Positions 11,100 through 51,884 of a stretch of 64,000 nucleotides of DNA are shown here, piece after piece. A program made the translations under genes and the position numbers. Source of the DNA: Synechococcus sp. SynAce01 (GTDB lineage: Bacteria; Cyanobacteriota; Cyanobacteriia; PCC-6307; Cyanobiaceae); contig NZ_CP018091.1 of NCBI RefSeq assembly GCF_001885215.1, forward strand, positions 2,232,001 to 2,296,000, in the 5' to 3' direction. The notes beneath the pieces were generated by a model. That model was not told where the DNA came from, searched no databases, and saw only the letters and a program-made list of their open reading frames with translations. Within the stretch, counting starts at the first letter, position 1. The number at the start of each line of letters is the position of its first letter.

Positions 11100-12251
11100 C
11101 TAAGCCTCCACCCCAAGGACCGGCAGCCGCGCCAGCAGGGACTGCAGCCCGGCCAGGAAGGCGCCGGAGCCAAACCGTTCGGCAACTGCAGCGGAAAGAG
11201 CCTCGGGCCGGAACCAGAGCTCCTCGCCATAGCCCTCCAGCAGGGCCCGCAAGGGCGGCGCCAGGGGCAACCGCGGATCCACCAGGCAGCCGAAGGCCCC
11301 ATCAGCGAGGGGATCCACTGAGCCATCGCGGTTGCCGGCCAGCACGGGCTTGCCGCAACCGAGCGCCTCGAGAAAGACGATGCCGAAGCCCTCCCCCTCG
11401 CTCGGCAGGGCGAAAAGGCTGGAGAGCCGGTAGTGATCGGCCAGCTCGGCGTCGGCAATGCGGCCAGGCAGCAACACCGCTTCGCTAAGCCTCAGCTGCT
11501 GAACGCGCCGGCGCAGCCGCGGCCGGTCGTCGCCGTCGCCACCAATCAGCAGCACGAGATCGGGCCAGAGCTTGCGCAACTCTGGCATCGCGGTGATCAG
11601 CGCGTCGATGTGCTTATAACAATCCTTGCTGGAGAGGCGCGTGATCGAGAAAATCAGGGGTTGCTCCGGCCTCAGGCTGTAGCGCTCCAGCAGGGCCACT
11701 GGGCGCGGGCCAGGGCGGAAGCGGTTCTGGTTGAAGCTGTTCGGCAGCACCACCAGCTCGGGGCAGCGCCGGCCGAGCTGGTGGTGCAGCTGATCACGGG
11801 TGTAGCGGCTAACCGGCAGCACCAGCTCCAGCCGCTGCAGAGCCCAGCGGCGCAGCCCGAACCGCAGGGTCCAGACGTCGATCCCATGGGCCGCCGCCCA
11901 GGTGGGGCAGCCCGCCAGCCGGCCCAGCAGAAGCTGGAGGGGAGCCAGGTGCGGATGGGTGGCGATCACCAAGGCCGGGCGACGGCGCATGGTTGCCATC
12001 AGTGCCACGAGCACCAGTTGAAGCAGGGAGAGCAGCGGCAGGCGGGATCCGCAGGGGTGGAGTTCCAGACGCGGATCTACAGCCACAGGCATGTGGGAGG
12101 AAAAGTCGTTGCGCACGAACACGCGCAAGCGCGTTTCGGCCGGGAGCACCTGCAGCAAGCCCTTCAGCAGGGTGCGACCGTAGTTCTGCACGCCGCCATC
12201 GCGGGCATAGAGCTCCGGGCAGAGCAGATCAACCACCGTCGGACGGCTCAT
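11100..12251 (-). CDS. GT4-family glycosyltransferase (module A)
   Basis: 383 residues. ARDGGVQNYGRTLLKGL at the N-terminus is the acceptor-side loop, AAHGIDVWTL and LVLPVSRYTRDQL lead to LPNSFNQNRF at the linker, and the donor domain has LLIGGDGDDR and ALPSEGEGFGIVFLEALGCGKPVLAGN. The stop is 3 bp before asnB and the start overlaps the next GT4 gene by ATGA (12248-12251). The decayed gene at 24544-25604 is a clear paralogue, with the same DGGVQ-YGR, LPVSR and GNRDGSVDPL segments, and marks the left end of the duplicated module. Confidence 0.85.
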   Translation of the reverse strand: MSRPTVVDLLCPELYARDGGVQNYGRTLLKGLLQVLPAETRLRVFVRNDFSSHMPVAVDPRLELHPCGSRLPLLSLLQLVLVALMATMRRRPALVIATHPHLAPLQLLLGRLAGCPTWAAAHGIDVWTLRFGLRRWALQRLELVLPVSRYTRDQLHHQLGRRCPELVVLPNSFNQNRFRPGPRPVALLERYSLRPEQPLIFSITRLSSKDCYKHIDALITAMPELRKLWPDLVLLIGGDGDDRPRLRRRVQQLRLSEAVLLPGRIADAELADHYRLSSLFALPSEGEGFGIVFLEALGCGKPVLAGNRDGSVDPLADGAFGCLVDPRLPLAPPLRALLEGYGEELWFRPEALSAAVAERFGSGAFLAGLQSLLARLPVLGVEA

Positions 12252-13429
12252 CGAAACACGGCCGCCCGCAGCAGTTGGTGCAGACCGGCTGTGGTGGCCG
12301 AATAGCTGAACCGATCGATGTGCTTTCGAGCCGCCACTCCCATGCGGCGCAGGCGGGCCGGATCGGAGAGAGCGTCAGCCAGGGCGGCGCGCAAGGCGGC
12401 GCCATCACCTGCGGGGACGATCCAGCCAGTACGGCCGGGGATCACCAGATCGGGCCCGCAGCCTACATGGCTGCTTACGAGCACCGGCCGGCTCAGGTTC
12501 ATGGCCTCGTTGATGCACAGCCCCCAGGTTTCAGCGGCTCCCACAGAGGGCAAGACGACCAGATCCGCCAGCGCATAGACGCGGGGCATGGCGCTCTGGT
12601 TCTGAAACGGCAGGATCCAAACCCTCCCGGCAGGTTGGGCGGCGGCGCGGTGCCGGAGCTCAGACTCCAGGGCACCGGCGCCCACCAGCACCAACACGGC
12701 GCTGGGGTGATCGAGGCGGCTGAAGGCTTCGACCAGATCGAGCGGCCGCTTCTTGGGCTCGAACTTGCCGGCAAACAGCACAACAGGAGCGGCTGGGTCA
12801 ATGCCAAGCTTATGGCGCCAGGCCTGCGCCTCACGCTCAGCGGCAGGGGCAGCGGCCTGAAAACGCTGATTGTCCACGTCGTGGGGGGCCAGCACGATCC
12901 GATCCGCCTGGATGCCGGCGGCGCGGAGGTAAGCCGCGTTGGCCTGGCCCACGGCCAGGGCCGCCGTGAAGCGGCGAAACAGCATCCTGCGCAGCATGGC
13001 GACAAACCCAGTGCTCCAGGAGTACTCACCGGCAAGGTTGTGGGAATCACCCCGCAGAACGATCGGAATCCGCCTCAGACGTGGATCAAGCAGCAGGCGT
13101 AGGTGGCTGCGGAAGGGGTAGCCGAACAGCAGCACGGCATCGGGTCGCCAGGCCAGCAGCACCGATACCAGCTTGGGATTATCGAGGCCACCGAAATGGT
13201 GCGTGCCTGGATCAGGCGAGCGGTTGGGTATGAAGCAGCTGGGGTAGCCTTCAAGCAACGGCAAATCCCAGCGAACACTCTGCGCGAAGCCCTTATCATG
13301 GCGCTCGGCAATACCGAAGTCCCAAAGGTAGAACACCTTTGACTCCAGCCCAGGATCGGCCGCCAGGAGAGCAAACCAGGGGGCGTAGTACTGAATCGGG
13401 TGGCTGACAACAACAGCAAGACGGATCAT
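12248..13429 (-). CDS. GT4-family glycosyltransferase (module A)
   Basis: 393 residues starting MIRLAVVVSHPIQYYAPWF, an N-terminus seen in GT4 enzymes of polysaccharide loci. Donor-domain motifs are LFAGKFEPKKRPLDL, VLVGAGALE and VLPSVGAAETWGLCINEAMNLSRPVLVS. The C-terminal half of the fusion protein at 25816-27894 is a divergent paralogue with the same HPIQYQAPLF and FVGKFQEKKHPLDL stretches. Upstream of its ATG lie 290 bp without a gene (13430-13719), in which I see no clear promoter or coding remnant. Sugar specificity unknown. Confidence 0.85.
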   Translation of the reverse strand: MIRLAVVVSHPIQYYAPWFALLAADPGLESKVFYLWDFGIAERHDKGFAQSVRWDLPLLEGYPSCFIPNRSPDPGTHHFGGLDNPKLVSVLLAWRPDAVLLFGYPFRSHLRLLLDPRLRRIPIVLRGDSHNLAGEYSWSTGFVAMLRRMLFRRFTAALAVGQANAAYLRAAGIQADRIVLAPHDVDNQRFQAAAPAAEREAQAWRHKLGIDPAAPVVLFAGKFEPKKRPLDLVEAFSRLDHPSAVLVLVGAGALESELRHRAAAQPAGRVWILPFQNQSAMPRVYALADLVVLPSVGAAETWGLCINEAMNLSRPVLVSSHVGCGPDLVIPGRTGWIVPAGDGAALRAALADALSDPARLRRMGVAARKHIDRFSYSATTAGLHQLLRAAVFR

Positions 13430-13719: not shown

Positions 13720-14640
13720 TCACCACAACTGGCGCTCTTGGAGGCCATTGGTGCAGAGCGTAACTCGTACCAGAGCCGGACCACTGTAATGCAATCTAAG
13801 AGCCCAGGCCAATCCACGCAGCTGCGCCAGAAGGCCCAGCGGAATCCACCAGGGTCTGCGTAAATGATGGCGTGTGATCACCGACCGGAGCAGATCACGT
13901 AAACATCCCAGCAAGGCAGGCAGCAATGGCTGCGTACGCAGGCGAAAATAAAACGAACCAACACAGTGATCAGGCCGAGTTGTTGTGAGGTGCTGGCCAT
14001 AACTGCGGGTGCCGCCACGCTGAGCTTGGAGATGGTCTATCAACGCCTCAGAAATATAACGAATACTCAACCCAGCCTGGCGCCAGCGATATGCAAGTTC
14101 TGCTTCGTAGCGATAGGCAACACGCACAAAGTTCTCATCAAAGCCGCCCAGATCGAGCGCCATTTGGCGTGGAAGGGAGAAGTTGCCTCCCATGAACTCA
14201 CTGCACGGGCGGGGTTGCAAGCTGTTGAAGCGAAAGGGTGCCGCAGTTTCCGCATCGGGCTGTCCCTGGTGCCAAGGCTGCAGCACCCTGCCCGCAATTA
14301 GGGCTCCAGGCCAGTGGCGGTGAGCCTCCAGGTGGGCGTGCAGCAACCCAGGCGAGGGGATGATGTCGTCGTCAAGAAACAGCACACGCTGGCCTTGGGC
14401 CTCCAGCAGGGCTCGATTCATGGCAGCGGTAATCGACGGTTGCTTCAGGCGGATCCAGCGCAGCCGTCCCTGTTGATTCCAGTCTTGTAGGTGCGCTTTG
14501 GTGCTGGGCTCGTGATCGGGCGTCTGATCAATGACCAGCAGCTCCTCCGGCGGTGGATCCAGAGCAAGCAAGGATTCGATGGAATCGATCAACACCTGCT
14601 CGCGCCCATAGGTGGGGATCGCCACCGAAAGTACAATCAT
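13720..14640 (-). CDS. GT2-family glycosyltransferase (module A)
   Basis: 306 residues from ATG 14640, chosen because it overlaps the upstream stop by ATGA; the longer open frame to 14682 is ignored. VLSVAIPTYGREQV opens the GT-A domain, LLVIDQTPD replaces the usual VDDxSxD, and FLDDDIIPSPG near residue 97 carries the metal-binding aspartates. MGGNFSLPRQM and LGGFDENF follow as in rhamnosyl/galactofuranosyl-type GT2 enzymes. The segment is nearly identical to residues 1-~190 of the GT2-GT4 fusion at 25816-27894, so the two are recent paralogues. Confidence 0.85.
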   Translation of the reverse strand: MIVLSVAIPTYGREQVLIDSIESLLALDPPPEELLVIDQTPDHEPSTKAHLQDWNQQGRLRWIRLKQPSITAAMNRALLEAQGQRVLFLDDDIIPSPGLLHAHLEAHRHWPGALIAGRVLQPWHQGQPDAETAAPFRFNSLQPRPCSEFMGGNFSLPRQMALDLGGFDENFVRVAYRYEAELAYRWRQAGLSIRYISEALIDHLQAQRGGTRSYGQHLTTTRPDHCVGSFYFRLRTQPLLPALLGCLRDLLRSVITRHHLRRPWWIPLGLLAQLRGLAWALRLHYSGPALVRVTLCTNGLQERQLW

Positions 14641-15608
14641 GGATGCGCGGAGAGATGCAGCGATTGGGTAGCTCGAAGCCACACCTTCGGCAGCCAGGGA
14701 CCGTGGCGAAAAGCTTCGGCAAAATAGCGCCGACAGCGCGGATCACCGTTGCGGCGCAGTGACTCGGCAATGAAATAGGCGCCTTCGGCCTGGTGTCGAT
14801 CGAAAGGCCACCAGCTTGGCAGACGCCAACCTGGTGGCCTGGGGCGAACTCGGGCAGCTTGGACCAGCAGAGGGGCTTCAGGATGGCCACTGCGGCGGGC
14901 TGCGTAGCAGGCTCGGGAGAGGGCCGCAATGGCACGTTGCTCACGCCAATGACGCGAAGAGAGCCCACAGGTAAACAGTCGCACACGTGTCAGCACCTCA
15001 GGGATGTGGATGAACGTGCCCTGCTCCGCGAGGCGATACCAAAGGTCCCAGTCTTGCCCGAAATAGAACTCCGGCCGGTAGCCGCCTGCGGCCTCATAGG
15101 CACTGCGCCGGAACATCACCGAAGCGTGGTGGGGGATATCGATCGAGAGACCCTGCTCAGGAGGGCCGGTGTTGACCCAACGCGGCTTAGCCATGGGGAG
15201 TTGGCATCGCTTCACAAAGAGGTGCTCCCATCGAGGGCCACAGACCTCAACATCACTGGTTACAAGAACGCATTCGGGGTGGCAGTCAAGGATGGAGGCT
15301 TGGTGGTGGAGCCGATCTGATGCCATAACATCCCCAACATCAAGGCGGGCGATGTAGTCTCCACGAGCCATGTCACATCCAGCAAGTAGGGCCTTGGTGA
15401 GACCAAGCTTCTGTGCAGCAACAACGATCAACCTACTCTCATCTCCCCATATTGTATTCAGGTCGGCGCTCAGATCAGTATCAATCCCGCCATCGAGAAC
15501 AAGAATGCACTCCATGTCTCCGCGATAGGAGGAAAAAACTGAAGTCAGAGAATCCAGCAATTGAGCAGCATGGCCATGGGCTGCAATAACGACAGATATC
15601 TTCATCAA
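14637..15608 (-). CDS. GT2-family glycosyltransferase (module A)
   Basis: 323 residues: ISVVIAAHGHAAQLLDSL at the start, RLDVGDVMASDRL in the position of the DxD motif, then GGYRPEFYFGQDWDLWYRLAEQG near residue 195. The last ~120 residues are almost the same as in the paralogue at 27891-28892, while the first 100 differ, which points to gene conversion or recombination in the shared part. It lies 12 bp upstream of the next start and is coupled to the downstream GT2 gene by ATGA. Confidence 0.85.
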   Translation of the reverse strand: MMKISVVIAAHGHAAQLLDSLTSVFSSYRGDMECILVLDGGIDTDLSADLNTIWGDESRLIVVAAQKLGLTKALLAGCDMARGDYIARLDVGDVMASDRLHHQASILDCHPECVLVTSDVEVCGPRWEHLFVKRCQLPMAKPRWVNTGPPEQGLSIDIPHHASVMFRRSAYEAAGGYRPEFYFGQDWDLWYRLAEQGTFIHIPEVLTRVRLFTCGLSSRHWREQRAIAALSRACYAARRSGHPEAPLLVQAARVRPRPPGWRLPSWWPFDRHQAEGAYFIAESLRRNGDPRCRRYFAEAFRHGPWLPKVWLRATQSLHLSAHP

Positions 15609-17357: not shown

Positions 17358-18371
17358 CTAGCGCTCAGAAAAAGGCCTGGAGAAAAAGCGGAATATCTGG
17401 TGCCTATTAAAGACGAAAGAACTTAGGGAGTCTGCACAACCAGTTCCAACCAGGCTGAGTGCTAGGCGCCAGAGGATCTGCTTTATCCTGATAAGCATAA
17501 ACGGCCGTGCAGCCTGCTGAGCAAGCCGATCGAACTGTGCGGAGATGGAACGTTCACCAGCCAAGGCCGATTGGCGCGCCAAGAGAAAGACAGCCTTGGA
17601 AAAGTGCATCATCTCTGGTGCACGCGGTTGTACACCAGCCTTGCCTGCACATTCCAAAATCGAGCGACGAGCCATGGCACGATCAGCCAGTTTACGCGGA
17701 TTTGTGCTACCTCCAGCGCTCAAATGCTCCTCGCTTAGATTGATGCGGCGAATCGAGCAGAGCTCATTTACCCAGACTAGGCGAGTCCCAGTGGAACCAC
17801 AACGGGCGTCGTATTCCCAGTCTTCCTCGTTGATCCACGGCTGCCATGGCCCGATCTGATCCAGCAGGGTACGGCGGTACAGAGGGGAGCTGGTGGTCCA
17901 CCACCGTTCCGTCAACAGCCTGGGGAAGAGGTGATCGATGAGTTCACCGGTGGCCCTCATCGGACAGTCGCGTCCTGGTGGGTTGGAAGCATGATTCTCT
18001 TCAGCACTGGGTCCGTAGCAGATGCCACACTCAGGCCGGCGCTGCAAGGTAGCAACCTGGGCGGAAAACTTTGCCGGCAAGAGCAGGTCGTCGCTGTCGA
18101 GGAATTGAATGAATTCGCCCCGTGCCTCATCCAGACCCCTCTGCCGGGCTGCGCCTGGACCACTGTTGACCTGGCGAATCACCTTGACGGGGATGATGGC
18201 TTCTCTCGAGAGCGTATCGGCAACATCTGCAGTAGCGTCAGTGGATCCATCGTCCACGATCACGATCTCGATGGAGGGATAAGTTTGCTGCAGCACGGAA
18301 CGAACCGCTTCCGCAAGCAGCCGTGGCCGGTTGTAGACGGGAATAATCGTACTGACGAGACCCTGATTCAT
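17358..18371 (-). CDS. GT2-family glycosyltransferase (module A)
   Basis: 337 residues with a textbook GT-A start: STIIPVYNRPRLLAEAV, IEIVIVDDGSTDAT, and QFLDSDDLLLPAKF with the DxD aspartates near residue 95. NEEDWEYDARCG near residue 185 is the catalytic ED-type motif. The N-terminal ~185 residues are encoded in the tract that is nearly identical to 29851-32450; the C-terminal part differs from the paralogue. It overlaps the upstream GT2 gene by ATGA. Intact here, frameshifted in module B. Confidence 0.85.
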   Translation of the reverse strand: MNQGLVSTIIPVYNRPRLLAEAVRSVLQQTYPSIEIVIVDDGSTDATADVADTLSREAIIPVKVIRQVNSGPGAARQRGLDEARGEFIQFLDSDDLLLPAKFSAQVATLQRRPECGICYGPSAEENHASNPPGRDCPMRATGELIDHLFPRLLTERWWTTSSPLYRRTLLDQIGPWQPWINEEDWEYDARCGSTGTRLVWVNELCSIRRINLSEEHLSAGGSTNPRKLADRAMARRSILECAGKAGVQPRAPEMMHFSKAVFLLARQSALAGERSISAQFDRLAQQAARPFMLIRIKQILWRLALSLVGTGCADSLSSFVFNRHQIFRFFSRPFSER

Positions 18372-19369
18372 TGAGAAGAGAACGACATACGATCTGGGCG
18401 ACCAGACCGGGTTCTCACGGAGAAGTACAGGAACCCACTGAAGGAAATGAGGAACCTAGGCTCGAGCCACAATGCCTTCGGTATGCATCGCAAGGGCGCA
18501 TGCCAGACGCAGCCCTTCATTTCAACCAGGCGTCTGCGATAAGCTTGCATCGCTGGCGGCCACAGCAGGATGCGATCCTTCAATGATCGACAACGAGGCT
18601 TCAAGTAGCGGTAGACCAAGGAAATGGCCGCAAGAAAATCCCGGCACAGCCGCTCCTGCTGAGCCTGGGTCGTCGCGCCCCAGGCTTCCCAGTGGCATAG
18701 ATTAAAAACAGTGTGATGAACCAAAGGCTTATCGAAATAAATGCAACTACCTCGGTTGAGAAGGCTTGCGAAGTAGAGAATCGGGAAGAAGGCATTGCTT
18801 TCGTATCTCGCCCAGAACTCCTGGTCAACCAAATCTGGGCGAAAGAACAAGCCGGTGAGGATGTAGCCCTTGTCCGCAAGGCGCATCGTGGTCACCGGGT
18901 CAGAGGGAAACACAACGTCGGCCGATGCGATGCGGCAACTGGTGCAGGCATGCGCACCTGATTCCGTGTAGGAGTATCGCGGGTAAAAAATGCTTGAAAC
19001 TGAATGGCTACGATCGTTTTCGAGGCGACGGATCACAGAGAGCAGGTGGTCGATGCTTCCTGGCTCAAGCCAGTCGTCGTCGGTGAGGATCGAACAGAAT
19101 GCAGCCTTGCATTCAAGAACCATGGAACGGATATTCGCCGACATGCCGAGATTCACGGCATTGAAATCTATAGAAATACAGGGATGGATGGACAGTAACT
19201 GAGCCTTGAATCGCTCGGAATCCATGCTTTTCGAAGCGTCGTCGCGAACATGAAGCGTCAGCGAGCCTTGCGACAGCTCCTGGTGGGCCTGACTGACGAC
19301 AGAGCGAACAGCTCGAATGGCTCCTTCCTCACGCTGATAGACGGGAACGAGGATGGCAAGCTCAGCCAC
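18368..19369 (-). CDS. GT2-family glycosyltransferase (module A, non-ATG start)
   Basis: The reading frame is open back to 19534, but that would overlap the upstream gene; GTG 19369 or TTG 19375 (which overlaps the upstream TGA) give a normal start VAELAILVPVYQREEGAI. The ~333-residue product has FCSILTDDDWLEPGSIDHL as its metal motif and a C-terminal half rich in aromatic residues. The whole gene lies in the 2.6-kb near-identical repeat. The copy at 30453 has lost one base near its 3' end and differs in its last residues. Confidence 0.75.
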   Translation of the reverse strand: MAELAILVPVYQREEGAIRAVRSVVSQAHQELSQGSLTLHVRDDASKSMDSERFKAQLLSIHPCISIDFNAVNLGMSANIRSMVLECKAAFCSILTDDDWLEPGSIDHLLSVIRRLENDRSHSVSSIFYPRYSYTESGAHACTSCRIASADVVFPSDPVTTMRLADKGYILTGLFFRPDLVDQEFWARYESNAFFPILYFASLLNRGSCIYFDKPLVHHTVFNLCHWEAWGATTQAQQERLCRDFLAAISLVYRYLKPRCRSLKDRILLWPPAMQAYRRRLVEMKGCVWHAPLRCIPKALWLEPRFLISFSGFLYFSVRTRSGRPDRMSFSSQ

Positions 19370-19371
19370 GC

Positions 19372-20361
19372 TCAAGGCCTCCTCCAGCGGATGAGCCTGG
19401 TGAGCCCAGTGAGTATGCGCTGAGCACGCGAACGGGTTCGCTGCATCGCAATGAGAGATGTGGCAGGAAGGTCGCTCAGGTAGATGGCGCAGAGGCTGAA
19501 CGATGAGTTTCCAGGATGGATGATGGCGTGGCATGACGACAACAACACCATGTCCATGAGTGCATCCCTGGTTTGCTCGAGACGGGGTTGGCCGAAATCG
19601 GTGAGGTGCAGAGGCGATTCATCATCGGAGAAAGGCTTCTGCCTCACAACGGTTCCAGGAAAGACCTTCAGAAACCAGTGCTGCGTCGGCAGATGGTCGG
19701 TAGACAGAAACACTCCATCGTAAAGACCGGTATTAAGCTTCCGCCGGACTGCTGCAAGAATCGCAGATTTACTAGGCGACGACTTCGTTACTACTTGTTC
19801 ATTGGCTGCTCGGATATGTACGCCCAGCATGGCCGAGCCAAAGTGCTCGGCAGTAAACGCTGTGCGCCTCAGCTCGATCTCAGGTTGCAGGCGCAGACAT
19901 TTGCGCACTCCAGCCTGGATGTCAGAGAGACTGTAGCTTGCTAGAGCATCAAAGTCCCACATGACACAGACCTGAGCATCATGTGGCTGTTTTTGATCGA
20001 ATGAATAGATATCCCGCGCTTCCTGCCGATCCCATCCTCTCATCCTATCCTCAATCCACAGGCTGAGCATCGTTCGCTGGAGACTGCCATCCCAGCGCGG
20101 CGGGAGCACTGAGGTGCTGTTTTGAACAGCAGAGAATTCAGCCTGGGCGTGCTGCCCTTCCAGGCGAAACAGCAGTTGGAACACATTGTCCCCTTCAGGG
20201 CCGAAGGTGCCATCATGCCAATCGACGAGCACCTTTCGATCGTTTTTTTCAGCATAGAGCAATGCCAGAATCACTGCTCGCAATGCATCGCCCAGACCGG
20301 CACCCCGGAAGGACTTCACAAGGACATAGCCACCGCGATCTGCAGATGATTGCACAGACAT
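19372..20361 (-). CDS. NodZ/fucosyltransferase-like glycosyltransferase, copy 1
   Basis: 329 residues. LVKSFRGAGLGDALRAVILALLYAE at the N-terminus is the glycine-rich opening of GT-B enzymes that act like NodZ-type fucosyltransferases; LGVHIRAANE near residue 192 matches the conserved HxR(R/A) nucleotide-sugar motif; VFLSTDHLPT and LLSSCHAIIHPGNSSFS are the other expected blocks. It would pass fucose or a related deoxysugar to the glycan. It is identical in translation to the gene at 31409-32398. It stops 2 bp before the next gene's start region. Confidence 0.65.
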   Translation of the reverse strand: MSVQSSADRGGYVLVKSFRGAGLGDALRAVILALLYAEKNDRKVLVDWHDGTFGPEGDNVFQLLFRLEGQHAQAEFSAVQNSTSVLPPRWDGSLQRTMLSLWIEDRMRGWDRQEARDIYSFDQKQPHDAQVCVMWDFDALASYSLSDIQAGVRKCLRLQPEIELRRTAFTAEHFGSAMLGVHIRAANEQVVTKSSPSKSAILAAVRRKLNTGLYDGVFLSTDHLPTQHWFLKVFPGTVVRQKPFSDDESPLHLTDFGQPRLEQTRDALMDMVLLSSCHAIIHPGNSSFSLCAIYLSDLPATSLIAMQRTRSRAQRILTGLTRLIRWRRP

Positions 20362-20363
20362 GA

Positions 20364-20414
20364 CTAGGCTTTCTGAGCGGCTCGCTCAAGCCTGGGACTC
20401 CAACCATAAAACAG
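20364..20414 (-). pseudogene. 3' remnant of a GT11-like gene cut by IS1595
   Basis: The last 16 codons (FYGWSPRLERAAQKA and stop) are the same as the end of the intact GT11-like gene at 32401-33294. Upstream sequence is replaced by the IS1595 left end at 20415. Nothing else of this gene is seen on the far side of the insertion sequences, so it was deleted rather than merely split. Confidence 0.85.
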
Positions 20415-21448
20415 CTTGATTAGGCAGCAAGCTCCGCAGGCAGCCCTTTTGGGACCTAGGCTGGTACGCATATACCAGTCGTCACTGCCATGGCTATGAA
20501 TCGGATCCAGTTCCAGGCCAGCCTGTCGCTGCCCCAGTTTATTGAGCTCTACGGAACCGAGCAAAAATGTGAAGTTGCCCTGGAACAGGCGCGCTGGCCT
20601 GATGGTTTCCGTTGCCCACGTTGTGAGGGCAAGGAGTACGGGCTCATCATTGGCAGGCGCCACAAGCGCTATCAGTGCCGGAGCTGTCGTCATCAAGCCA
20701 CCCTCACGGCCGGTACCATCTTGGAGGCAACAAAGTTACCTCTGACCACCTGGTTCCTTGCCTTCTACCTCGTCGGCCAAGCCAAGACAGGAATCTCCTC
20801 ACTAGCTCTGAGGCGTCATCTCGGTGTGAACTACCGAACGGCATGGTTGCTTCAGAACAAGATCATGCAGGCAATGAAAGAACGTGATGGCGCCTATGTC
20901 CTCAGAGGAAGGGTGCAGGTGGATGATGCCTACCTTGGCGGAGAACGCTGTGGTGGCAAGCCTGGTCGTGGATCGGAGAACAAGGTGCCGGTCGTGGCAG
21001 CCGTCTCTGTCGATGAGGCGGGCCACCCCCGGTATATAAAACTTGCCACCGTGCCCACGTTCTCTTTTGCCGCTATTGCTGATTGGGCCCAAGATTCACT
21101 GGCGATAGGCTGTGAAGTGATCTCCGATGGGCTGGCTTGCTTTCGCGCCGTTGCAGAAGTCGGTTGCTTCCATCATCCTGTGGTCGTAAAGGGTCGTCAT
21201 CCCAATGAATTACCAGAATTCCGTTGGATTAACACGGTGCTCAGCAACTTGAAAACCAGCTTCAGCGGCAGCTTCCATGCCCTTCGCTTCGAAAAGTACG
21301 CTGATCGCTACTTGGGCGCCTTCAGCTACCGCTTCAATCGGCGGTTCAATCTGGCGGCAATGACCGAGCGTGTGGTTCATGCCATCTGCAGCTGTCAAGC
21401 ACGGCCGGAACGACTCCTGAGGTGTGCGGAGTTTGCTACCTAATCGAG
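20415..21448 (+). mobile_element. IS1595-family (ISXO2-like) element, copy 1
   Basis: 1034 bp, the same length and sequence as copy 2. The ends form an imperfect inverted repeat: CTTGATTAGGCAGCAAGCTC on the left and CTCGATTAGGTAGCAAACTC reading in from the right. The flanking octamers (TAAAACAG and TGGGGAGA) do not match, unlike copy 2, so this copy has lost its target duplication through deletion or recombination. Confidence 0.9.
20490..21443 (+). CDS. IS1595-family (ISXO2-like) transposase, copy 1
   Basis: 317 residues. An N-terminal zinc ribbon is visible (C42PRC45 and C63RSC66). The catalytic core starts with VQVDDAYLGG (first aspartate near 145), followed by ISDGLACF and INTVLSNLK, the pattern of IS1595/ISXO2 DD(N/E) transposases. 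It is full length for the family and free of frameshifts, so probably active. It catalyses cut-and-paste or copy-in movement of the element. The gene fills almost the whole element. Confidence 0.9.
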   Translation: MAMNRIQFQASLSLPQFIELYGTEQKCEVALEQARWPDGFRCPRCEGKEYGLIIGRRHKRYQCRSCRHQATLTAGTILEATKLPLTTWFLAFYLVGQAKTGISSLALRRHLGVNYRTAWLLQNKIMQAMKERDGAYVLRGRVQVDDAYLGGERCGGKPGRGSENKVPVVAAVSVDEAGHPRYIKLATVPTFSFAAIADWAQDSLAIGCEVISDGLACFRAVAEVGCFHHPVVVKGRHPNELPEFRWINTVLSNLKTSFSGSFHALRFEKYADRYLGAFSYRFNRRFNLAAMTERVVHAICSCQARPERLLRCAEFAT

Positions 21449-24543: not shown

Positions 24544-25604
24544 TTACTGAGTGCTGTTACTGCGTGATGCCTTGTAAAGTTCATGAAAGGCATGCGGGAG
24601 CCTCAGCGCGCCCTCGGCGGTGAGGAGCTCATCGAGGTGCCGGTAGAAGGCGGGGCAAACTTATCGCGAGGCCACCGCCGCCGACAGGCCGGAGGGATCG
24701 AAGCATAGCGGCTGGCTGCAGCGCTCCAGCAGGGCACGCAGATGTTGGGCCAGGGGCTGATCGGGGTCCACCAGCAGCCCGAAGCGCCCATCGTCCAGGG
24801 GATCCACCGAGCCATCGCGGTTGCCTGCCAGCACCGGCCGCCTGCAGCCGAGGGCTTCGAGGAAGAGGATGCCGAATCCCTCCTTCTCGCTCGGCAGAGC
24901 GAAGACGCTGGCCAGGCGGTAGTGATCAGCCAGTTCATAGTCGGCAATGCGCCCCGGCAGCAACACAAAACCCTGCAGACCCAGATCTTCCACCAAAGCC
25001 AGGAGACGCGCCCGGTCGTCCCCGTCGCCGCCGATCAGCAGCATCAGGTTGGGATGGGATCGGCGCAACTTCACCATGGCGGTGTCTAGGCGATCAAGAT
25101 GCTTTGCGTGATCGCCGCGACTCAGACGGCAGAGACTGAACACCACGAGCTGACTAGGAAACAGGCCATAGCGTTCAAGCAGGGCTACCGACGCATGCCC
25201 GGGAGAGAAGTCTTCAGCGTCGTAGGTGTTCGGCAGCAGGGTGAGGGAAGGGCACTGAACACCGAGCTGTGAGCGCAACCGAGCGGCCGTGATGCGGCTC
25301 ACAGGCAACAGCAGATCGGCACGGGAAAGGGCCAAGCGGCGGAGTCCGTCTAGCGGCCGCCATGCCTCGATGCCGTGAACGCTGATCCACAGACGCGCTT
25401 CGGCAAGCCTGGCCGCCGGCCAGCCGATCGGCGCGAGGTGCAGGTGGCTGCAGGAGCACCAATTGAGGGCGACGACGGTTCGTAGCCAAGGCAGCCACCA
25501 CCAGGGGCAGCCAACAACGAGCGTCCATAGCGCTGCACGCCCCCGTCTGCACTCCACACCTGGGGAGCAAGCACCTGCACACGGGCTGGCCAAGCAGAGC
25601 TCAT
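24544..25604 (-). pseudogene. GT4-family glycosyltransferase, decayed (module B)
   Basis: Paralogue of the gene at 11100-12251. The start MSSAWPARVQVLAPQVWSAD (ATG 25604) continues to GGVQRYGRSLL in one frame, a second frame holds LVVAALATNRRRPQ, a third runs from HLHLAPIGW through LPVSR, LLIGGDGDDRARL and ALPSEKEGFGILFLEALGC to SAAVA, and a final frame restores FYRHLDELLTAEGAL up to TAA at 24544-24546. About 50 residues are missing after the N-terminus. At least three frameshifts and one deletion show it is not functional as a whole, although the donor domain remains open. Confidence 0.85.
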
Positions 25605-25815
25605 GACGCCACCAGGGACATGGCGCTGCGCAGGCAAGAGTTAGCGAACCTATCGATGCACGACCAGAAAAAAGCACCTGCCCCCGTGTGGCGGAAGACT
25701 GAGACAGCTGCTGCGAGGGCATCGAGAAGAACCGGAAGTTGCGGCGATTAACCAGGCACAGACGGAGCAGACGGGGGTTAAGTTGTCTTCATCGAAGACA
25801 GTCGCAACTGCAACA

Positions 25816-27894
25816 TCACCCAATTACGGCTGCCAGTCGCCTGGCAAGAGCATCCTTAATGCCATGGACATTGACGCTTACGTTGTAGATTTCCATGACC
25901 CGACTGCGGGCCGCGTTGCCCATGGCATCTGCCCTTTCTCGATCCTCGCTGAGCCAGTGCATTGCGCCTGCCAGTGCATCAATATCTCCAAATGGGAAGG
26001 TAAGCCCTGTGTGCTCATGGAGCACGAGATCTTCCGCGCACCCAACTTGATCACTCACAATCGCTGGCAGACCACATGCCATTGCCTCATTCACGACCAA
26101 CCCCCAGGTTTCACCAGAGTCTGATGGGAGGACAAGTGCGTCTGCTACTACATAAGCTTGAGTGATTTCAGTCTGGTTGAGAAAACCCGCAAAGCTCACC
26201 GCCAGGTCATGGTCTTGAGCATATTGTCGACACTTATCATTCAATTCACCTGAACCCACGAACAGCACATGAATTCTCTCCGACAACCCTTGTTCCTGTA
26301 GGCGCTCCAGGGAAAGGAGAAGATCGAGAGGGTGCTTCTTTTCCTGAAACTTGCCAACAAAAAGAAAGCAGAAGGCCTCACCAGGAATTGCCCATTGCTT
26401 ACGCAGCTCTTCTCGGAATGGGGCGATGCTCTTGGCACGTTCGGCAAAGAACTGGTTATCCACAAAATAGGGAGCCGACCAGAGACGGTCTGCTGGAGCT
26501 CCGTTTCGGCGATAAAAGCGGGCATTGGCTTTTCCGATCGGCAACAGTGCCGCTGCCTGGGCAACGATCAGCCGATGCGGCAGCCTCACAGGCCATGACC
26601 TGGCCCGAAGATCATTGGCTTCGGTGCGCAAAAGAATCGGTAAGCAGCGAAGCCTCGCAGCGATCAGCATCTGGAGCATGCCCAAGCATTGCCAGCCGGT
26701 GATCAACACCGCATCAGGCATCACCCGCTCTGGGCCAAAGGCCAATTCAGCCATAGGCTTGGCTAGCCAAAGACGAAGGTATTGAGCTTGGTCGCCGCGG
26801 CTCCGGGTTGACGTTGCCACTCGCCAATGGTAACCATCGAGCAGAGGCACATCCCAAGTGAAAGGCAGGCCGAAGCCCACGCCCTGGAGCTGAGCATCGG
26901 GCAAGGTGAGAAATAAGACCTCGATTCGCATGGAGCCATCGGAAGCCAGTGCTCGAAATAGAGGAGCCTGATACTGAATCGGATGGGTCGTGACAATCAG
27001 CAGACGACGTACCTTCGTCGACAGCAACCTTGGGCCTTTTACCGATAACCAAAAAGCCCAGAATAGGCCGCGCAACTCAGCCAGGAGGGTGAGGGGGATC
27101 CACCAAGGCCTATGCAGGTGATGGCGTGTGCGAGGAGCACGAAAGAGCGCAGCAGCAGAGCGAAACACTGCCGAGTGAAATGGACGGGTACAGAGCAGGT
27201 GGTAATAACGACCAACGGCATGATCCGGACGCAGGGTACGAAGGTGTTCTCCATAGCTGCGTGTTCCACCACGGGAGGTATGCAAATGATCAATCAGGGC
27301 CTCTGGTATGTAGCTGATTGATAGCTCACATTGCCTCCAGCGATGGGCAAACTCAGCTTCAAAGCGATAGGCTACACGCGTGAAGTTTTCGTCAAACCCC
27401 CCCAGTTCGAGCGCCATTTGGCGGGGAAGGGAGAAGTTGCCGCCCATGAACTCACTGCACGGGCGGGGTTTTAAGCTGTTGAAGCGGAAGGGTGCCGCAG
27501 TTTCCGCATCGGGCTGACCCTGGTACCAGGGCTGCAGCACCCTGCCGGCAATCAGGGCTCCAGGCCAGTGGCGGTGAGCCTCCAGATGGGCGTGCAGCAA
27601 TCCTGGCGAGGGAATGATGTCGTCGTCGAGAAACAGCACACGCTGGCCTTGGGCCTCCAGCAGGGCTCGATTCATGGCAGCGGTAATCGACGGTTGCTTC
27701 AGGCGGATCCAGCGCAGCCGTCCCTGTTGATCCCAGTCTTGTAGGTGCGCTTCGGTGCTGGGCTCGTGATCGGGCGTCTGATCAATGACCAGCAGCTCCT
27801 CCGGCGGTGGATCCAGAGCAAGCAAGGCTTCGATGGAATCGATCAACACCTGCTCGCGGCCATAGGTGGGGATCGCCACCGAAAGTGCAGTCAT
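25816..27894 (-). CDS. Bifunctional GT2-GT4 glycosyltransferase fusion
   Basis: A single 692-residue frame. Residues 1-~300 are a GT2 domain (LSVAIPTYGREQV, FLDDDIIPSPG, MGGNFSLPRQM), nearly identical in its first ~190 residues to the separate GT2 protein at 13720-14640. Residues ~308-692 are a GT4 domain (LLIVTTHPIQYQAPLF, FVGKFQEKKHPLDL, LVLPSDSGETWGLVVNEAMACG), related to the separate GT4 protein at 12248-13429. In module A the same two genes lie in the same order but apart, with 290 bp between. The fusion thus arose by loss of that spacer and the GT2 stop. Both active-site sets are present, so two successive transfers by one polypeptide are plausible. Confidence 0.85.
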   Translation of the reverse strand: MTALSVAIPTYGREQVLIDSIEALLALDPPPEELLVIDQTPDHEPSTEAHLQDWDQQGRLRWIRLKQPSITAAMNRALLEAQGQRVLFLDDDIIPSPGLLHAHLEAHRHWPGALIAGRVLQPWYQGQPDAETAAPFRFNSLKPRPCSEFMGGNFSLPRQMALELGGFDENFTRVAYRFEAEFAHRWRQCELSISYIPEALIDHLHTSRGGTRSYGEHLRTLRPDHAVGRYYHLLCTRPFHSAVFRSAAALFRAPRTRHHLHRPWWIPLTLLAELRGLFWAFWLSVKGPRLLSTKVRRLLIVTTHPIQYQAPLFRALASDGSMRIEVLFLTLPDAQLQGVGFGLPFTWDVPLLDGYHWRVATSTRSRGDQAQYLRLWLAKPMAELAFGPERVMPDAVLITGWQCLGMLQMLIAARLRCLPILLRTEANDLRARSWPVRLPHRLIVAQAAALLPIGKANARFYRRNGAPADRLWSAPYFVDNQFFAERAKSIAPFREELRKQWAIPGEAFCFLFVGKFQEKKHPLDLLLSLERLQEQGLSERIHVLFVGSGELNDKCRQYAQDHDLAVSFAGFLNQTEITQAYVVADALVLPSDSGETWGLVVNEAMACGLPAIVSDQVGCAEDLVLHEHTGLTFPFGDIDALAGAMHWLSEDRERADAMGNAARSRVMEIYNVSVNVHGIKDALARRLAAVIG

Positions 27895-28892
27895 GGATGC
27901 GCGGAGAGGTGGAGCGATTGGGCAGTTCGTAGCCAGATCTTTGGCAGCCAGGGACCGTGGCGAAAAGCTTCGGCAAAATAGCGCCGACAGCGCGGATCAC
28001 CGTTGCGGCGCAGCGATTCGGCAATGAAATAGGCGCCTTCGGCCTGGTGTCGATCGAAAGGCCACCAGCGTGGCAAACGCCAGCTTGGTGGTCTGGGGCG
28101 AAGCCGGGCAGCCTGGAGCAGCAGAGGGTCTTCAGGATGGTCGCTGCGGCGGGCTGCGTAGCACGCTCGGGAGAGGGCAGCACTGGCACGCTGCTCACGC
28201 CAATGACGCGAAGAGAGCCCACAGGGAAACAGACGCACACGTGTCAGCACTTCAGGGATCTGGAAGAAGCTGCCTTGCTCGGCAAGCCGGTACCAGAGAT
28301 CCCAGTCTTGCCCGTAGTAAAATTCATTGCGGTAGCCACCGACTAATGCATAGGCACTTCGGCGGACCATCACAGACGCATGGTGGGGAATGTCGATAGA
28401 CAGACCAGCCTCAGCAGACAGCGTGTCGGCCCGCTGGGGCTGCTGCATTGGAAATGGGCAACGTTTTACTTGCAGTGGTTCCCAAAAAGGTCCGCAAACC
28501 TCAACATCACTGGTGACCAAAACGCAGCCGGGATGCTGTTTTAGCACTTGAAATTGGCGATCGAGCCGTGAGGGGGTCATCACATCGCCGACATCGAGCC
28601 GGGCGATAGCTCTTCCTTTCGCCAAAGAGCAGCCCTTGATCAGGGCCCCGGTGAGCCCAGGCTTCTCTAGATATTCAAGCCGAATACAAGGAAGCTGCTT
28701 GCGCAGAACCGCAACTGCCTCTTGATATCGTTTGCGGCAAAGCCCGTTAAACACCACGATGAGCTCCCAGCCCACTCCTCGGGAGCTGATAACACTCGCG
28801 AGGGTTTCGACCAATTGTATCGACAACTCATGGGTTCCAATTATACAGCTGACGCTGGGAATCATTTTTGGAACCAGGGACGAGCTATTCAT
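27891..28892 (-). CDS. GT2-family glycosyltransferase (module B)
   Basis: 333 residues. VSCIIGTHELSIQLVETLASV at the start, ARLDVGDVMTPSRL for the metal site, then GGYRNEFYYGQDWDLWYRL. From residue ~190 onward the sequence nearly equals the module A protein at 14637-15608; the first part is clearly different, showing a recombination border inside the gene. Its ATG at 28892 abuts the stop of the truncated methyltransferase remnant (TGAATG), and its own end is coupled by ATGA to the fusion gene. Confidence 0.85.
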   Translation of the reverse strand: MNSSSLVPKMIPSVSCIIGTHELSIQLVETLASVISSRGVGWELIVVFNGLCRKRYQEAVAVLRKQLPCIRLEYLEKPGLTGALIKGCSLAKGRAIARLDVGDVMTPSRLDRQFQVLKQHPGCVLVTSDVEVCGPFWEPLQVKRCPFPMQQPQRADTLSAEAGLSIDIPHHASVMVRRSAYALVGGYRNEFYYGQDWDLWYRLAEQGSFFQIPEVLTRVRLFPCGLSSRHWREQRASAALSRACYAARRSDHPEDPLLLQAARLRPRPPSWRLPRWWPFDRHQAEGAYFIAESLRRNGDPRCRRYFAEAFRHGPWLPKIWLRTAQSLHLSAHP

Positions 28893-29378: not shown

Positions 29379-30409
29379 TTATCTTTGCGACGTGATTATC
29401 GACAACCAAATCAATGAAGCTCTCGAAGTGGTTGAATGGGTGAGTGGAGAAAAAATATTGGCAAACTTTGCTCCTCGTCTCCAGCCAAACCAGTGGGCCA
29501 CTAGACCATAGAAGAAGTAGTACAGAAGGCGAAAGCTTGTGGGAGTGGACGCGCATCTAGCCAAGTTCAGAAGTGTTATCGATTCTTTGTCTAACCCTGC
29601 CAAGCCGCACTGGCGGCAAAGCAAGAAGGTCGAGCGAGCAAAGAGTCGCATCTCCGGTGCTTCCAATGGAATCCCTGCCTGGCGGGCGCTGATATAGATC
29701 GATTGGCGTGCCATGCTCCGATCCGATAACTTGCGAGGATCCACGCTGCCCCTCTGGCTGAGGTGGTCATTGCCGAGGTTGATGCGCCGTACAGAACAGG
29801 GATCCTCAACCCAAGCCAGCCGTGTGCGCGTGGCACCGCAGCGCGCATCATATTCCCAGTCTTCCTCGTTGATCCACGGCTGCCATGGCCCGATCTGATC
29901 CAGCAGGGTACGGCGGTACAGAGGGGAGCTGGTGGTCCACCACCGTTCCGTCAACAGCCTGGGGAAGAGGTGATCGATGAGTTCACCGGTGGCCCTCATC
30001 GGACAGTCGCGTCCTGGTGGGTTGGAAGCATGATTCTCTTCAGCACTGGGTCCGTAGCAGATGCCACACTCAGGCCGGCGCTGCAAGGTAGCAACCTGGG
30101 CGGAAAACTTTGCCGGCAAGAGCAGGTCGTCGCTGTCGAGGAATTGAATGAATTCGCCCCGTGCCTCATCCAGACCCCTCTGCCGGGCTGCGCCTGGACC
30201 ACTGTTGACCTGGCGAATCACCTTGACGGGGATGATGGCTTCTCTCGAGAGCGTATCGGCAACATCTGCAGTAGCGTCAGTGGATCCATCGTCCACGATC
30301 ACGATCTCGATGGAGGGATAAGTTTGCTGCAGCACGGAACGAACCGCTTCCGCAAGCAGCCGTGGCCGGTTGTAGACGGAACAATCGTACTGACGAGACC
30401 CTGATTCAT
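29379..30409 (-). pseudogene. GT2-family glycosyltransferase, frameshifted near its start (module B)
   Basis: From ATG 30409 the frame begins MNQGLVSTIVP as in the module A gene, then breaks because one base is missing where copy A has GACGGGAATAATC and copy B GACGGAACAATC. The rest (from LQQTYPSIEIVIVDDGST) is open to 29379, with FLDSDDLLLP and NEEDWEYDARCG intact. The last ~130 residues differ from copy A. An internal start would lack the first nucleotide-binding strand, so the product is unlikely to work unless the missing base is a sequence error. Confidence 0.75.
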
Positions 30410-30452
30410 TGAGAAGAGAACGACATACGATCTGGGCGACCAGACCGGGTTC

Positions 30453-31406
30453 TCACGGAGAAGTACAGGAACCCACTGAAGGAATGAGGAACCTAGGCTC
30501 GAGCCACAATGCCTTCGGTATGCATCGCAAGGGCGCATGCCAGACGCAGCCCTTCATTTCAACCAGGCGTCTGCGATAAGCTTGCATCGCTGGCGGCCAC
30601 AGCAGGATGCGATCCTTCAATGATCGACAACGAGGCTTCAAGTAGCGGTAGACCAAGGAAATGGCCGCAAGAAAATCCCGGCACAGCCGCTCCTGCTGAG
30701 CCTGGGTCGTCGCGCCCCAGGCTTCCCAGTGGCATAGATTAAAAACAGTGTGATGAACCAAAGGCTTATCGAAATAAATGCAACTACCTCGGTTGAGAAG
30801 GCTTGCGAAGTAGAGAATCGGGAAGAAGGCATTGCTTTCGTATCTCGCCCAGAACTCCTGGTCAACCAAATCTGGGCGAAAGAACAAGCCGGTGAGGATG
30901 TAGCCCTTGTCCGCAAGGCGCATCGTGGTCACCGGGTCAGAGGGAAACACAACGTCGGCCGATGCGATGCGGCAACTGGTGCAGGCATGCGCACCTGATT
31001 CCGTGTAGGAGTATCGCGGGTAAAAAATGCTTGAAACTGAATGGCTACGATCGTTTTCGAGGCGACGGATCACAGAGAGCAGGTGGTCGATGCTTCCTGG
31101 CTCAAGCCAGTCGTCGTCGGTGAGGATCGAACAGAATGCAGCCTTGCATTCAAGAACCATGGAACGGATATTCGCCGACATGCCGAGATTCACGGCATTG
31201 AAATCTATAGAAATACAGGGATGGATGGACAGTAACTGAGCCTTGAATCGCTCGGAATCCATGCTTTTCGAAGCGTCGTCGCGAACATGAAGCGTCAGCG
31301 AGCCTTGCGACAGCTCCTGGTGGGCCTGACTGACGACAGAGCGAACAGCTCGAATGGCTCCTTCCTCACGCTGATAGACGGGAACGAGGATGGCAAGCTC
31401 AGCCAC
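30453..31406 (-). pseudogene. GT2-family glycosyltransferase with altered C-terminus (module B)
   Basis: Same as the module A gene at 18368-19369 up to ALWLEPRFLI, then one A is missing from the GGAAATGAGG tract and the frame ends 9 residues later (PSVGSCTSP) instead of 23 residues of the original end. The GT-A core (ILVPVYQREEG, ILTDDDWLEPG) is unchanged, so the protein may still be active; I class it as damaged because of the frameshift. Start GTG 31406 or TTG 31412 by analogy. Confidence 0.65.
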
Positions 31407-31408
31407 GC

Positions 31409-32398
31409 TCAAGGCCTCCTCCAGCGGATGAGCCTGGTGAGCCCAGTGAGTATGCGCTGAGCACGCGAACGGGTTCGCTGCATCGCAATGAGAGATGTGG
31501 CAGGAAGGTCGCTCAGGTAGATGGCGCAGAGGCTGAACGATGAGTTTCCAGGATGGATGATGGCGTGGCATGACGACAACAACACCATGTCCATGAGTGC
31601 ATCCCTGGTTTGCTCGAGACGGGGTTGGCCGAAATCGGTGAGGTGCAGAGGCGATTCATCATCGGAGAAAGGCTTCTGCCTCACAACGGTTCCAGGAAAG
31701 ACCTTCAGAAACCAGTGCTGCGTCGGCAGATGGTCGGTAGACAGAAACACTCCATCGTAAAGACCGGTATTAAGCTTCCGCCGGACTGCTGCAAGAATCG
31801 CAGATTTACTAGGCGACGACTTCGTTACTACTTGTTCATTGGCTGCTCGGATATGTACGCCCAGCATGGCCGAGCCAAAGTGCTCGGCAGTAAACGCTGT
31901 GCGCCTCAGCTCGATCTCAGGTTGCAGGCGCAGACATTTGCGCACTCCAGCCTGGATGTCAGAGAGACTGTAGCTTGCTAGAGCATCAAAGTCCCACATG
32001 ACACAGACCTGAGCATCATGTGGCTGTTTTTGATCGAATGAATAGATATCCCGCGCTTCCTGCCGATCCCATCCTCTCATCCTATCCTCAATCCACAGGC
32101 TGAGCATCGTTCGCTGGAGACTGCCATCCCAGCGCGGCGGGAGCACTGAGGTGCTGTTTTGAACAGCAGAGAATTCAGCCTGGGCGTGCTGCCCTTCCAG
32201 GCGAAACAGCAGTTGGAACACATTGTCCCCTTCAGGGCCGAAGGTGCCATCATGCCAATCGACGAGCACCTTTCGATCGTTTTTTTCAGCATAGAGCAAT
32301 GCCAGAATCACTGCTCGCAATGCATCGCCCAGACCGGCACCCCGGAAGGACTTCACAAGGACATAGCCACCGCGATCTGCAGATGATTGCACAGACAT
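31409..32398 (-). CDS. NodZ/fucosyltransferase-like glycosyltransferase, copy 2
   Basis: 329 residues, the same translation as the gene at 19372-20361, and lying in the 2.6-kb direct repeat. All motifs are kept (FRGAGLGDALRAV, GVHIRAANE, STDHLPT, IIHPGNSSFS). It begins 2 bp after the stop of the intact GT11-like gene. With the neighbouring GT2 copies damaged, this second gene gives redundancy or extra dosage of the same sugar transfer. Confidence 0.65.
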   Translation of the reverse strand: MSVQSSADRGGYVLVKSFRGAGLGDALRAVILALLYAEKNDRKVLVDWHDGTFGPEGDNVFQLLFRLEGQHAQAEFSAVQNSTSVLPPRWDGSLQRTMLSLWIEDRMRGWDRQEARDIYSFDQKQPHDAQVCVMWDFDALASYSLSDIQAGVRKCLRLQPEIELRRTAFTAEHFGSAMLGVHIRAANEQVVTKSSPSKSAILAAVRRKLNTGLYDGVFLSTDHLPTQHWFLKVFPGTVVRQKPFSDDESPLHLTDFGQPRLEQTRDALMDMVLLSSCHAIIHPGNSSFSLCAIYLSDLPATSLIAMQRTRSRAQRILTGLTRLIRWRRP

Positions 32399-32400
32399 GA

Positions 32401-33294
32401 CTAGGCTTTCTGAGCGGCTCGCTCAAGCCTGGGACTCCAACCATAAAACAATGTGCTCTCGCGTAGCTGGGATCTATACAACCGCTGATCTCGGGAGAAG
32501 AGATGCAAGATTCTGGATTCTGTGAGGAATGCCGCCCAGACGCTGAAGGTAGATGGGGGGTCAATGATCACGTCACACAGCGACAGAAGCAGCTGATCAG
32601 TAGGCCCATCAGAGAGTGGCGAGACGGTGAGAGAATCTGATGCCTGTGCCTGCAGGAATCCGGGCTCATTCGAGCAGAGCAAAAAATGTATTTGGCCCTC
32701 ATCAGCACGCCGAAATTCGTGTTTTGCCTGCTCAATCCAGTCTAGATAGTCGCTCTCATTATAATGCCAGACCCCACCTCGATGCCTAGAATAGTCTCCA
32801 CGCCTGGCATGGATGCCGATCAGGATGCTGGATTTCGCACGTGCATCAGCATATACCGAATAGGCTTGTTGGTGATATCGCTCACGATAACGGAAGATCT
32901 TTCTGATGACTGGAGCCTCGGCATGGGAGACTGCCGGCATGCTCGAACACCAGTCTCCGGCCTGATCAATGATCCAGAGGCCGCGTTGAAGCGTGCTGGG
33001 TGGAAGGTCCGCCCATGAACGTGTCTCATTGAGATAGTTGATCCCAGGACAGCACTGCAGGATTCGCCTGGAAAAACGATTTGAGACAATGCGGCACAAC
33101 AGCCGGTAAAGGCTCAATGGCAGAAACAGCAACGTAATTCGGTGTGTTCGGTCACCGGCTTCGAACATCTCCCTGTAGTCACTCAATGACAGGACAAGGA
33201 CACGGATATCATGTCGTATGCAGAAACTCGTCAGGGCTGCAAGGGCAACCAGCCGGTTGGAGATCTGGGATCGCTGCCGCAGTACGAGAATCAT
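32401..33294 (-). CDS. GT11-like (alpha-1,2-fucosyltransferase-type) glycosyltransferase
   Basis: 297 residues. ILIGIHARRGDYSRHRGG near residue 158 carries the HxRRGDY motif of GT11 fucosyltransferases; HFLLCSNEPGF and LLLSLCDVIIDPPSTFSVWAA match the later conserved blocks. The N-terminal LRQRSQISNRLVALAALTSF replaces the usual GGLGNQ loop, so donor use could differ. Overlaps the WbsX-like gene by ATGA. It is the intact form of the gene whose last 16 codons remain at 20364-20414. Confidence 0.7.
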   Translation of the reverse strand: MILVLRQRSQISNRLVALAALTSFCIRHDIRVLVLSLSDYREMFEAGDRTHRITLLFLPLSLYRLLCRIVSNRFSRRILQCCPGINYLNETRSWADLPPSTLQRGLWIIDQAGDWCSSMPAVSHAEAPVIRKIFRYRERYHQQAYSVYADARAKSSILIGIHARRGDYSRHRGGVWHYNESDYLDWIEQAKHEFRRADEGQIHFLLCSNEPGFLQAQASDSLTVSPLSDGPTDQLLLSLCDVIIDPPSTFSVWAAFLTESRILHLFSRDQRLYRSQLRESTLFYGWSPRLERAAQKA

Positions 33295-39154: not shown

Positions 39155-40188
39155 CTTGATTAGGCAGCAAGCTCCGCAGGCAGCCCTTTTGGGACCTAGG
39201 CTGGTACGCATATACCAGTCGTCACTGCCATGGCTATGAATCGGATCCAGTTCCAGGCCAGCCTGTCGCTGCCCCAGTTTATTGAGCTCTACGGAACCGA
39301 GCAAAAATGTGAAGTTGCCCTGGAACAGGCGCGCTGGCCTGATGGTTTCCGTTGCCCACGTTGTGAGGGCAAGGAGTACGGGCTCATCATTGGCAGGCGC
39401 CACAAGCGCTATCAGTGCCGGAGCTGTCGTCATCAAGCCACCCTCACGGCCGGTACCATCTTGGAGGCAACAAAGTTACCTCTGACCACCTGGTTCCTTG
39501 CCTTCTACCTCGTCGGCCAAGCCAAGACAGGAATCTCCTCACTAGCTCTGAGGCGTCATCTCGGTGTGAACTACCGAACGGCATGGTTGCTTCAGAACAA
39601 GATCATGCAGGCAATGAAAGAACGTGATGGCGCCTATGTCCTCAGAGGAAGGGTGCAGGTGGATGATGCCTACCTTGGCGGAGAACGCTGTGGTGGCAAG
39701 CCTGGTCGTGGATCGGAGAACAAGGTGCCGGTCGTGGCAGCCGTCTCTGTCGATGAGGCGGGCCACCCCCGGTATATAAAACTTGCCACCGTGCCCACGT
39801 TCTCTTTTGCCGCTATTGCTGATTGGGCCCAAGATTCACTGGCGATAGGCTGTGAAGTGATCTCCGATGGGCTGGCTTGCTTTCGCGCCGTTGCAGAAGT
39901 CGGTTGCTTCCATCATCCTGTGGTCGTAAAGGGTCGTCATCCCAATGAATTACCAGAATTCCGTTGGATTAACACGGTGCTCAGCAACTTGAAAACCAGC
40001 TTCAGCGGCAGCTTCCATGCCCTTCGCTTCGAAAAGTACGCTGATCGCTACTTGGGCGCCTTCAGCTACCGCTTCAATCGGCGGTTCAATCTGGCGGCAA
40101 TGACCGAGCGTGTGGTTCATGCCATCTGCAGCTGTCAAGCACGGCCGGAACGACTCCTGAGGTGTGCGGAGTTTGCTACCTAATCGAG
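39155..40188 (+). mobile_element. IS1595-family (ISXO2-like) element, copy 2
   Basis: 1034 bp with the same inverted ends as copy 1. It is flanked by a perfect 8-bp direct repeat TCATACAA at 39147-39154 and 40189-40196, which is the target duplication normal for IS1595. It sits in an FkbM gene in the opposite orientation to the gene. Confidence 0.95.
39230..40183 (+). CDS. IS1595-family (ISXO2-like) transposase, copy 2
   Basis: 317 residues, translation identical to copy 1 at 20490-21443, including the zinc ribbon cysteines and the VDDAYLGG catalytic start. Identity of two copies 18.7 kb apart together with an unworn target duplication shows recent transposition in this genome. Confidence 0.95.
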   Translation: MAMNRIQFQASLSLPQFIELYGTEQKCEVALEQARWPDGFRCPRCEGKEYGLIIGRRHKRYQCRSCRHQATLTAGTILEATKLPLTTWFLAFYLVGQAKTGISSLALRRHLGVNYRTAWLLQNKIMQAMKERDGAYVLRGRVQVDDAYLGGERCGGKPGRGSENKVPVVAAVSVDEAGHPRYIKLATVPTFSFAAIADWAQDSLAIGCEVISDGLACFRAVAEVGCFHHPVVVKGRHPNELPEFRWINTVLSNLKTSFSGSFHALRFEKYADRYLGAFSYRFNRRFNLAAMTERVVHAICSCQARPERLLRCAEFAT

Positions 40189-47230: not shown

Positions 47231-47332
47231 CAAGCCTGGGACAGCGCACTTAGATAATTTACTCAAACTGCAGGCGTTGCGCAGCTCACACCGTCAGTCG
47301 ATCCATTGGCAGGGAAGGCTCAGGGCATCGGC

Positions 47333-48577: not shown

Positions 48578-48660
48578 GGGCATCGGCTGCCCTGGCCAGG
48601 TTTCGATCAGCTGTGGCGATCAGGAGATTGTGCCGCTTCGCCAGGGCCAGATGCAGAGTA

Positions 48661-48729
48661 TCATGGTGCCTTCCTGGTAAGACTGCTGTTCTTCGGGCAC
48701 AAGCCGGGCCACAACCCGACCGCGCCGGG
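48661..48729 (-). pseudogene. Phd/YefM-type antitoxin fragment
   Basis: About 70 bp equal to the middle of the antitoxin gene at 51615-51863 (coding for ARLVPEEQQSYQE-like sequence). Its two ends are fused to the toxin fragment and to the Uma2 fragment. Confidence 0.75.
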
Positions 48730-48911
48730 TTGATCTGGGATGCGCTTCAGCTTGCCCAGATCTCTTCAAGATCCAGCTGCAGGCCTGGAAACTCAGGGCC
48801 TGCTTCGAGATGCGTGGCCTGTTCCTTGCGCTGCGGGTCGCCGTTGGCCTGATAGGCGGCCATCTTGCGGCGCAAAGCGCTGACGCCACGGGGGCCATCA
48901 TCGCTGGGGCT
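48727..48911 (-). pseudogene. Uma2-family nuclease fragment (left copy)
   Basis: Matches the 3' portion of the intact Uma2 gene at 51885-52580, with an internal loss of about 75 bp between two GTCGCCG/GCGCCG-like sites, and ends at CTGGGGCTGG, a string also found in the amidase gene. Confidence 0.75.
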
Positions 48912-51236: not shown

Positions 51237-51251
51237 GCGCAGCTCACGCCG

Positions 51252-51611: not shown

Positions 51612-51614
51612 TTC

Positions 51615-51863: not shown

Positions 51864-51884
51864 GGTCAACAGGTCAGCTGGTCA

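Follow-up and report, generated by a model that had tools for sequence, protein, structure and literature searches.

Organization of the fused gene and its neighborhood

The window, that is the whole 64,000-nucleotide stretch of the Synechococcus sp. SynAce01 genome analyzed here, contains on its reverse strand a gene for a fused GT2-GT4 glycosyltransferase of 692 amino acids (25816..27894), with an ATG start and an uninterrupted frame. Pfam profiles matched residues 5-119 to Glycos_transf_2 (PF00535; E 9e-16, 58.7 bits against a cut-off of 23.3) and residues 494-664 to Glycos_transf_1 (PF00534; E 3e-35, 121.6 bits against a cut-off of 26.4), within a GT2 domain of the GT-A type (residues 1-290; 27025..27894, reverse strand) and a GT4 domain of the GT-B type (residues 297-692; 25819..27006, reverse strand), respectively. 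Along with these above-cut-off profiles, the N-terminal half carries a DXD-type metal/donor motif, present as DDD at residues 90-92 (27619-27627, reverse strand), and the C-terminal half an EX7E motif, E595-x7-E603 (26086-26112, reverse strand). The original prediction, made from the sequence alone, that GT2 and GT4 enzymes are joined in one 692-residue protein with both catalytic motif sets kept, was confirmed by this single intact reading frame, the two Pfam domains and the two motifs.

Upstream, the fused gene overlaps by 4 nt a second GT2 gene, GT2a (27891..28892, reverse strand), whose counterpart in module A of the window lies at 14637-15608. The order GT2a-GT2b-(GT4)-GT4c is common to both modules, and most relatives also carry a GT2a-like gene (32-39% identity) upstream of their fused gene. 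The neighbors kept in relatives are, in a conserved order, a GT2 gene (17358-like), the GT2a-like gene, the fusion itself, a GT4 gene (7189-like) and the 5753-like and 4926-like genes. In the window, the GT4c gene of module B (24661-25722), downstream of the fusion, looks broken, with its N-terminal homology in another frame and an early stop when compared with 11100-12251, so this module-B copy may be decaying.

Distribution of the fusion among cyanobacteria

A search for the same fusion in other cyanobacteria, suggested with the original prediction, recovered it at full length in 33 of 400 genomes sampled from the source family, the window genome included; in one further genome the match runs off a contig end. 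The 32 other genomes, among them those of Synechococcus sp. CS-1328 and Cyanobium sp. CH-040, encode proteins with 53-64% identity over both halves, gap-free across the junction and without stops. In a phylum-wide draw of 386 genomes, full-length fusions were confined to the source family. The GT2-GT4 fusion is therefore real, old and conserved among picocyanobacterial relatives. Its divergence to this extent in many other genomes shows that the genes of this window were not its source. Our literature searches, mainly of openly accessible papers, turned up no description of this GT2-GT4 fusion. We consider it probable that the protein is a bimodular glycosyltransferase established in the surface-polysaccharide clusters of picocyanobacteria, with a linker of a few residues between its modules.

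Relationship to the unfused genes of module A

Module A contains an unfused GT2 gene, GT2b (13720..14640, reverse strand, 306 aa), and a separate GT4 gene (12248..13429, reverse strand, 393 aa), divided by a 290-bp gap, at the positions given originally. Both domains of the fusion had been proposed to match these neighbors. For the GT2 half, a match of 80% identity over 295 residues to 13720-14640 was indeed found, although this value is mostly due to a homogenized tract; between the GT4 half and 12248-13429 identity reaches only 36%. The GT2 pair is a mosaic, with residues 1-183 being 94% identical and residues 184-294 only 59%. The tract, of about 840 bp (27421..28260, shared with 14167-15006), spans the GT2a/GT2b boundary and shows mostly 88-100% identity in 40-bp steps, with about 45-78% beyond it on both sides. 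The synonymous divergence of the GT2 pair is low inside the tract (dS 0.21, residues 1-183) and saturated outside. Such a block, together with the contrast in dS, is the pattern left by recent recombination or gene conversion between modules.

Outside the tract, the module-A GT2 is 59% identical to the window fusion, compared with 52-67% to other fusions, and is closest (63-69%) to the unfused GT2 of genome G349, at 69%, and to fused GT2s of genus g6. In the GT2 tree all fused halves fall in one clade (support 100/100), whose only unfused members are the module-A GT2 and that of G349. A clade of fused sequences only was rejected (AU p 0.0066), consistent with the GT4 half having been lost at least once, in G349. 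The G349 gene (L069:7682-9187) encodes the GT2 half alone, ends at the fusion junction, is nested among fused sequences and is clearly a secondary fission product.

The module-A GT2 may have the same origin, its lost GT4 half having been replaced by a GT4 of another lineage, a reading compatible with an old, conserved fusion and one that we regard as evenly balanced. Its similarity outside the tract to the G349 and g6 sequences, the clear fission in G349 with the accompanying tree test, and the presence in module A of the 7189-, 5753- and 4926-like genes that follow the fusion in relatives all argue for it. Against it, placement of the module-A GT2 alone outside the fused clade was not rejected (AU p 0.19; p 0.38 for the tail region), and a search for a GT4 remnant in the 290-bp gap, as downstream of the G349 GT2, returned nothing above noise. 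A promoter/terminator scan of the gap yielded a single weak site, located on the opposite strand. The gene at 13720-14640 is thus a relative whose place is within or next to the fused clade; recombination with the locus of the fused gene has recently altered it, and it is not a demonstrated parent.

The GT4 half of the fusion is closer to other fused GT4s (47-64%) than to its module-A counterpart, which in turn is 70% identical to a standalone GT4 of genome G085. A tree of 40 GT4 sequences grouped the 21 fused halves in one clade (support 94/98) that excluded the module-A GT4, whose nearest neighbors were those of G085 and G053. No second domain, and so no second, independent fusion, was found in the standalone GT4s with extra N-terminal length (G053, G192). 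In module A the equivalent position is occupied by a GT4 from a different lineage.

The two halves are thus not each closest to the gene proposed as parent. The identical gene order of both modules and the 80% GT2 identity could be taken to mean that the fusion was built from duplicates of the two module-A genes, with parent and product in one window. We judge this highly improbable, since the tree refutes it for the GT4 half, which belongs to another clade, the fusion is widespread and diverged, and the GT2 identity comes mostly from the local tract. The proposal of unfused parents 12 kb away is accordingly wrong for the GT4 and unproven for the GT2, and the view that the window presents the split and fused states of the same pair is not supported. 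High inter-module identity in such loci can reflect local recombination and not parentage.

Junction between the two domains

Alignment spacing and a low-confidence structure model place the junction in a short linker at about residues 291-296 (27007..27024, reverse strand), connecting the final helix of the GT2 to the opening strand of the GT4. This puts the junction near 27007-27025 and not at 26980, as first expected. In each of the 31 aligned fusions, 11-12 residues separate the GP of that helix from the LL of that strand, and the C-terminal ends of unfused GT2s fall at much the same point. The model, built from a five-row alignment, has a helix at residues 265-290 followed by a strand at 296-302; with a mean pLDDT of 58.5 it is too poor for domain packing or a fold search. 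In an alignment of 13 rows, which included window paralogues, the GT2 half was misaligned, and this alignment was left out. As an in-frame start from which the GT4 half of the window protein might be translated separately, the junction offers only a TTG, without a convincing ribosome site. An assembly artefact masking a stop and a start at this point, the sequencing error raised beforehand as a reason to doubt the fusion, is excluded in practice and of negligible probability, because 32 other genomes are open and gap-free through the same junction and the spacing is equal in the aligned fusions.

Split counterparts and proposed route of fusion

Genome G355 contains separate GT2 and GT4 genes in the order of the fusion, overlapping by 8 nt (ATGAGTAA). 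Its GT4 is 48% identical to the fusion. Its GT2, at only 39% identity, falls among other unfused GT2s, so the pair is an analogue of the pre-fusion state and not a proven ancestor; it is nonetheless a better split state than the module-A genes. A related GT2/GT4 pair, overlapping by GTGA, was found in G168, a genome of a different family.

Most likely, the fusion formed a single time in an ancestor, or it reached its present range through transfer among members of the family. We infer that its source would have been two overlapping genes on the same strand, joined by a small frame change at a stop/start overlap such as that of G355, which would leave almost no linker between the two domains.

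Two fused genes, of G427 (L063:561-2609) and G419 (L066:1501-3549), step from 62% to 92% identity about 120 bp upstream of the junction, which points to a swap of one module between strains. This step, the fission in G349 and perhaps module A could suggest a hitherto undescribed family of picocyanobacterial surface-glycan loci in which fission and recombination recur close to the domain junction, glycan linkages diversifying by exchange of whole modules, a generalization that we hold to be doubtful for now.

Predicted function and comparison with known systems

Residues D38, D90-D92, E179, E181 and H203 of the GT2 half are invariant in 31 of 31 fused sequences. In the GT4 half, E603 is likewise kept in all 31 and E595 in 30, the exception being G318, in which the GT4 half may consequently be inactive. 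Close pairs of relatives gave dN/dS values of about 0.08-0.25 in both halves, indicating purifying selection. GT2 enzymes have the GT-A fold and are typically inverting, and GT4 enzymes have the GT-B fold and are retaining. Both modules are predicted to be active, and the protein would probably make two linkages of one glycan, possibly consecutive. A role in surface-polysaccharide assembly is likely given the transferase neighbors in relatives and the asparagine-synthase-like, methyltransferase, pyruvyltransferase and ABC-transporter genes of the window. That one module alone is catalytic, the other serving as an acceptor-binding or scaffolding domain, would agree with the loss of E595 from the EX7E motif in G318; it is unlikely, however, with both motif sets present in 30 of 31 fused proteins and both halves under purifying selection.

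No NCBIfam equivalog scored above its cut-off for the fused protein. The best match of the GT2 half was HpsN (NF038299; 110.9 bits, curated cut-off 425) and the GT4 half weakly matched HpsO (54.9 bits, curated cut-off 575). HpsN (GT2) and HpsO/HpsP (GT4) belong to the cyanobacterial hormogonium polysaccharide locus and their models describe separate proteins; scoring far below the cut-offs, the fusion halves are not members. Matches to PDB relatives fall largely in the GT4 half and say nothing about specificity.

Bimodular transferases are already a known kind. WbdA of Klebsiella O3/E. coli O9 and ORF6 of Klebsiella O7 likewise have two glycosyltransferase modules per polypeptide in a polysaccharide cluster, the WbdA modules being mannosyl transferases and those of O7 two GT2s, whereas the window protein combines a GT2 and a GT4 (PMC11231755). 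Its two complete modules in one chain correspond to the arrangement of WbdA. Work on Klebsiella O4/O7 has described polymerase modules as variably distributed among single- and multi-module proteins (PMC11231755), and the window fusion therefore adds one more case to a known arrangement. Exostosins (GT47 + GT64, heparan sulfate) also join two glycosyltransferase families in one protein, each thought to add one sugar type (PMC9178029); being animal enzymes of other families, they offer an analogy only.

The locus thus provides a natural, conserved GT2 and GT4 fusion with a split counterpart in another genome, that of G355. Picocyanobacterial surface polysaccharides are little characterized and probably matter for recognition by phages and grazers. 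Should both modules act on a single glycan, two linkages of such a polysaccharide would become easier to assign with the fusion and the G355 pair.

Repeats and transposases in the window

Two direct repeats of 2.6 kb (17791-20413 and 29830-32450) are 99.66% identical, each with a GT2-like and a NodZ-like (fucosyltransferase-type) gene. Near them are two copies of an IS1595-type transposase gene (20490-21443 and 39230-40183) with identical protein sequence, possible agents of the duplications. Several short direct repeats of 54-292 bp, 77-98% identical, are also shared between 47279-49399 and 51237-53765.
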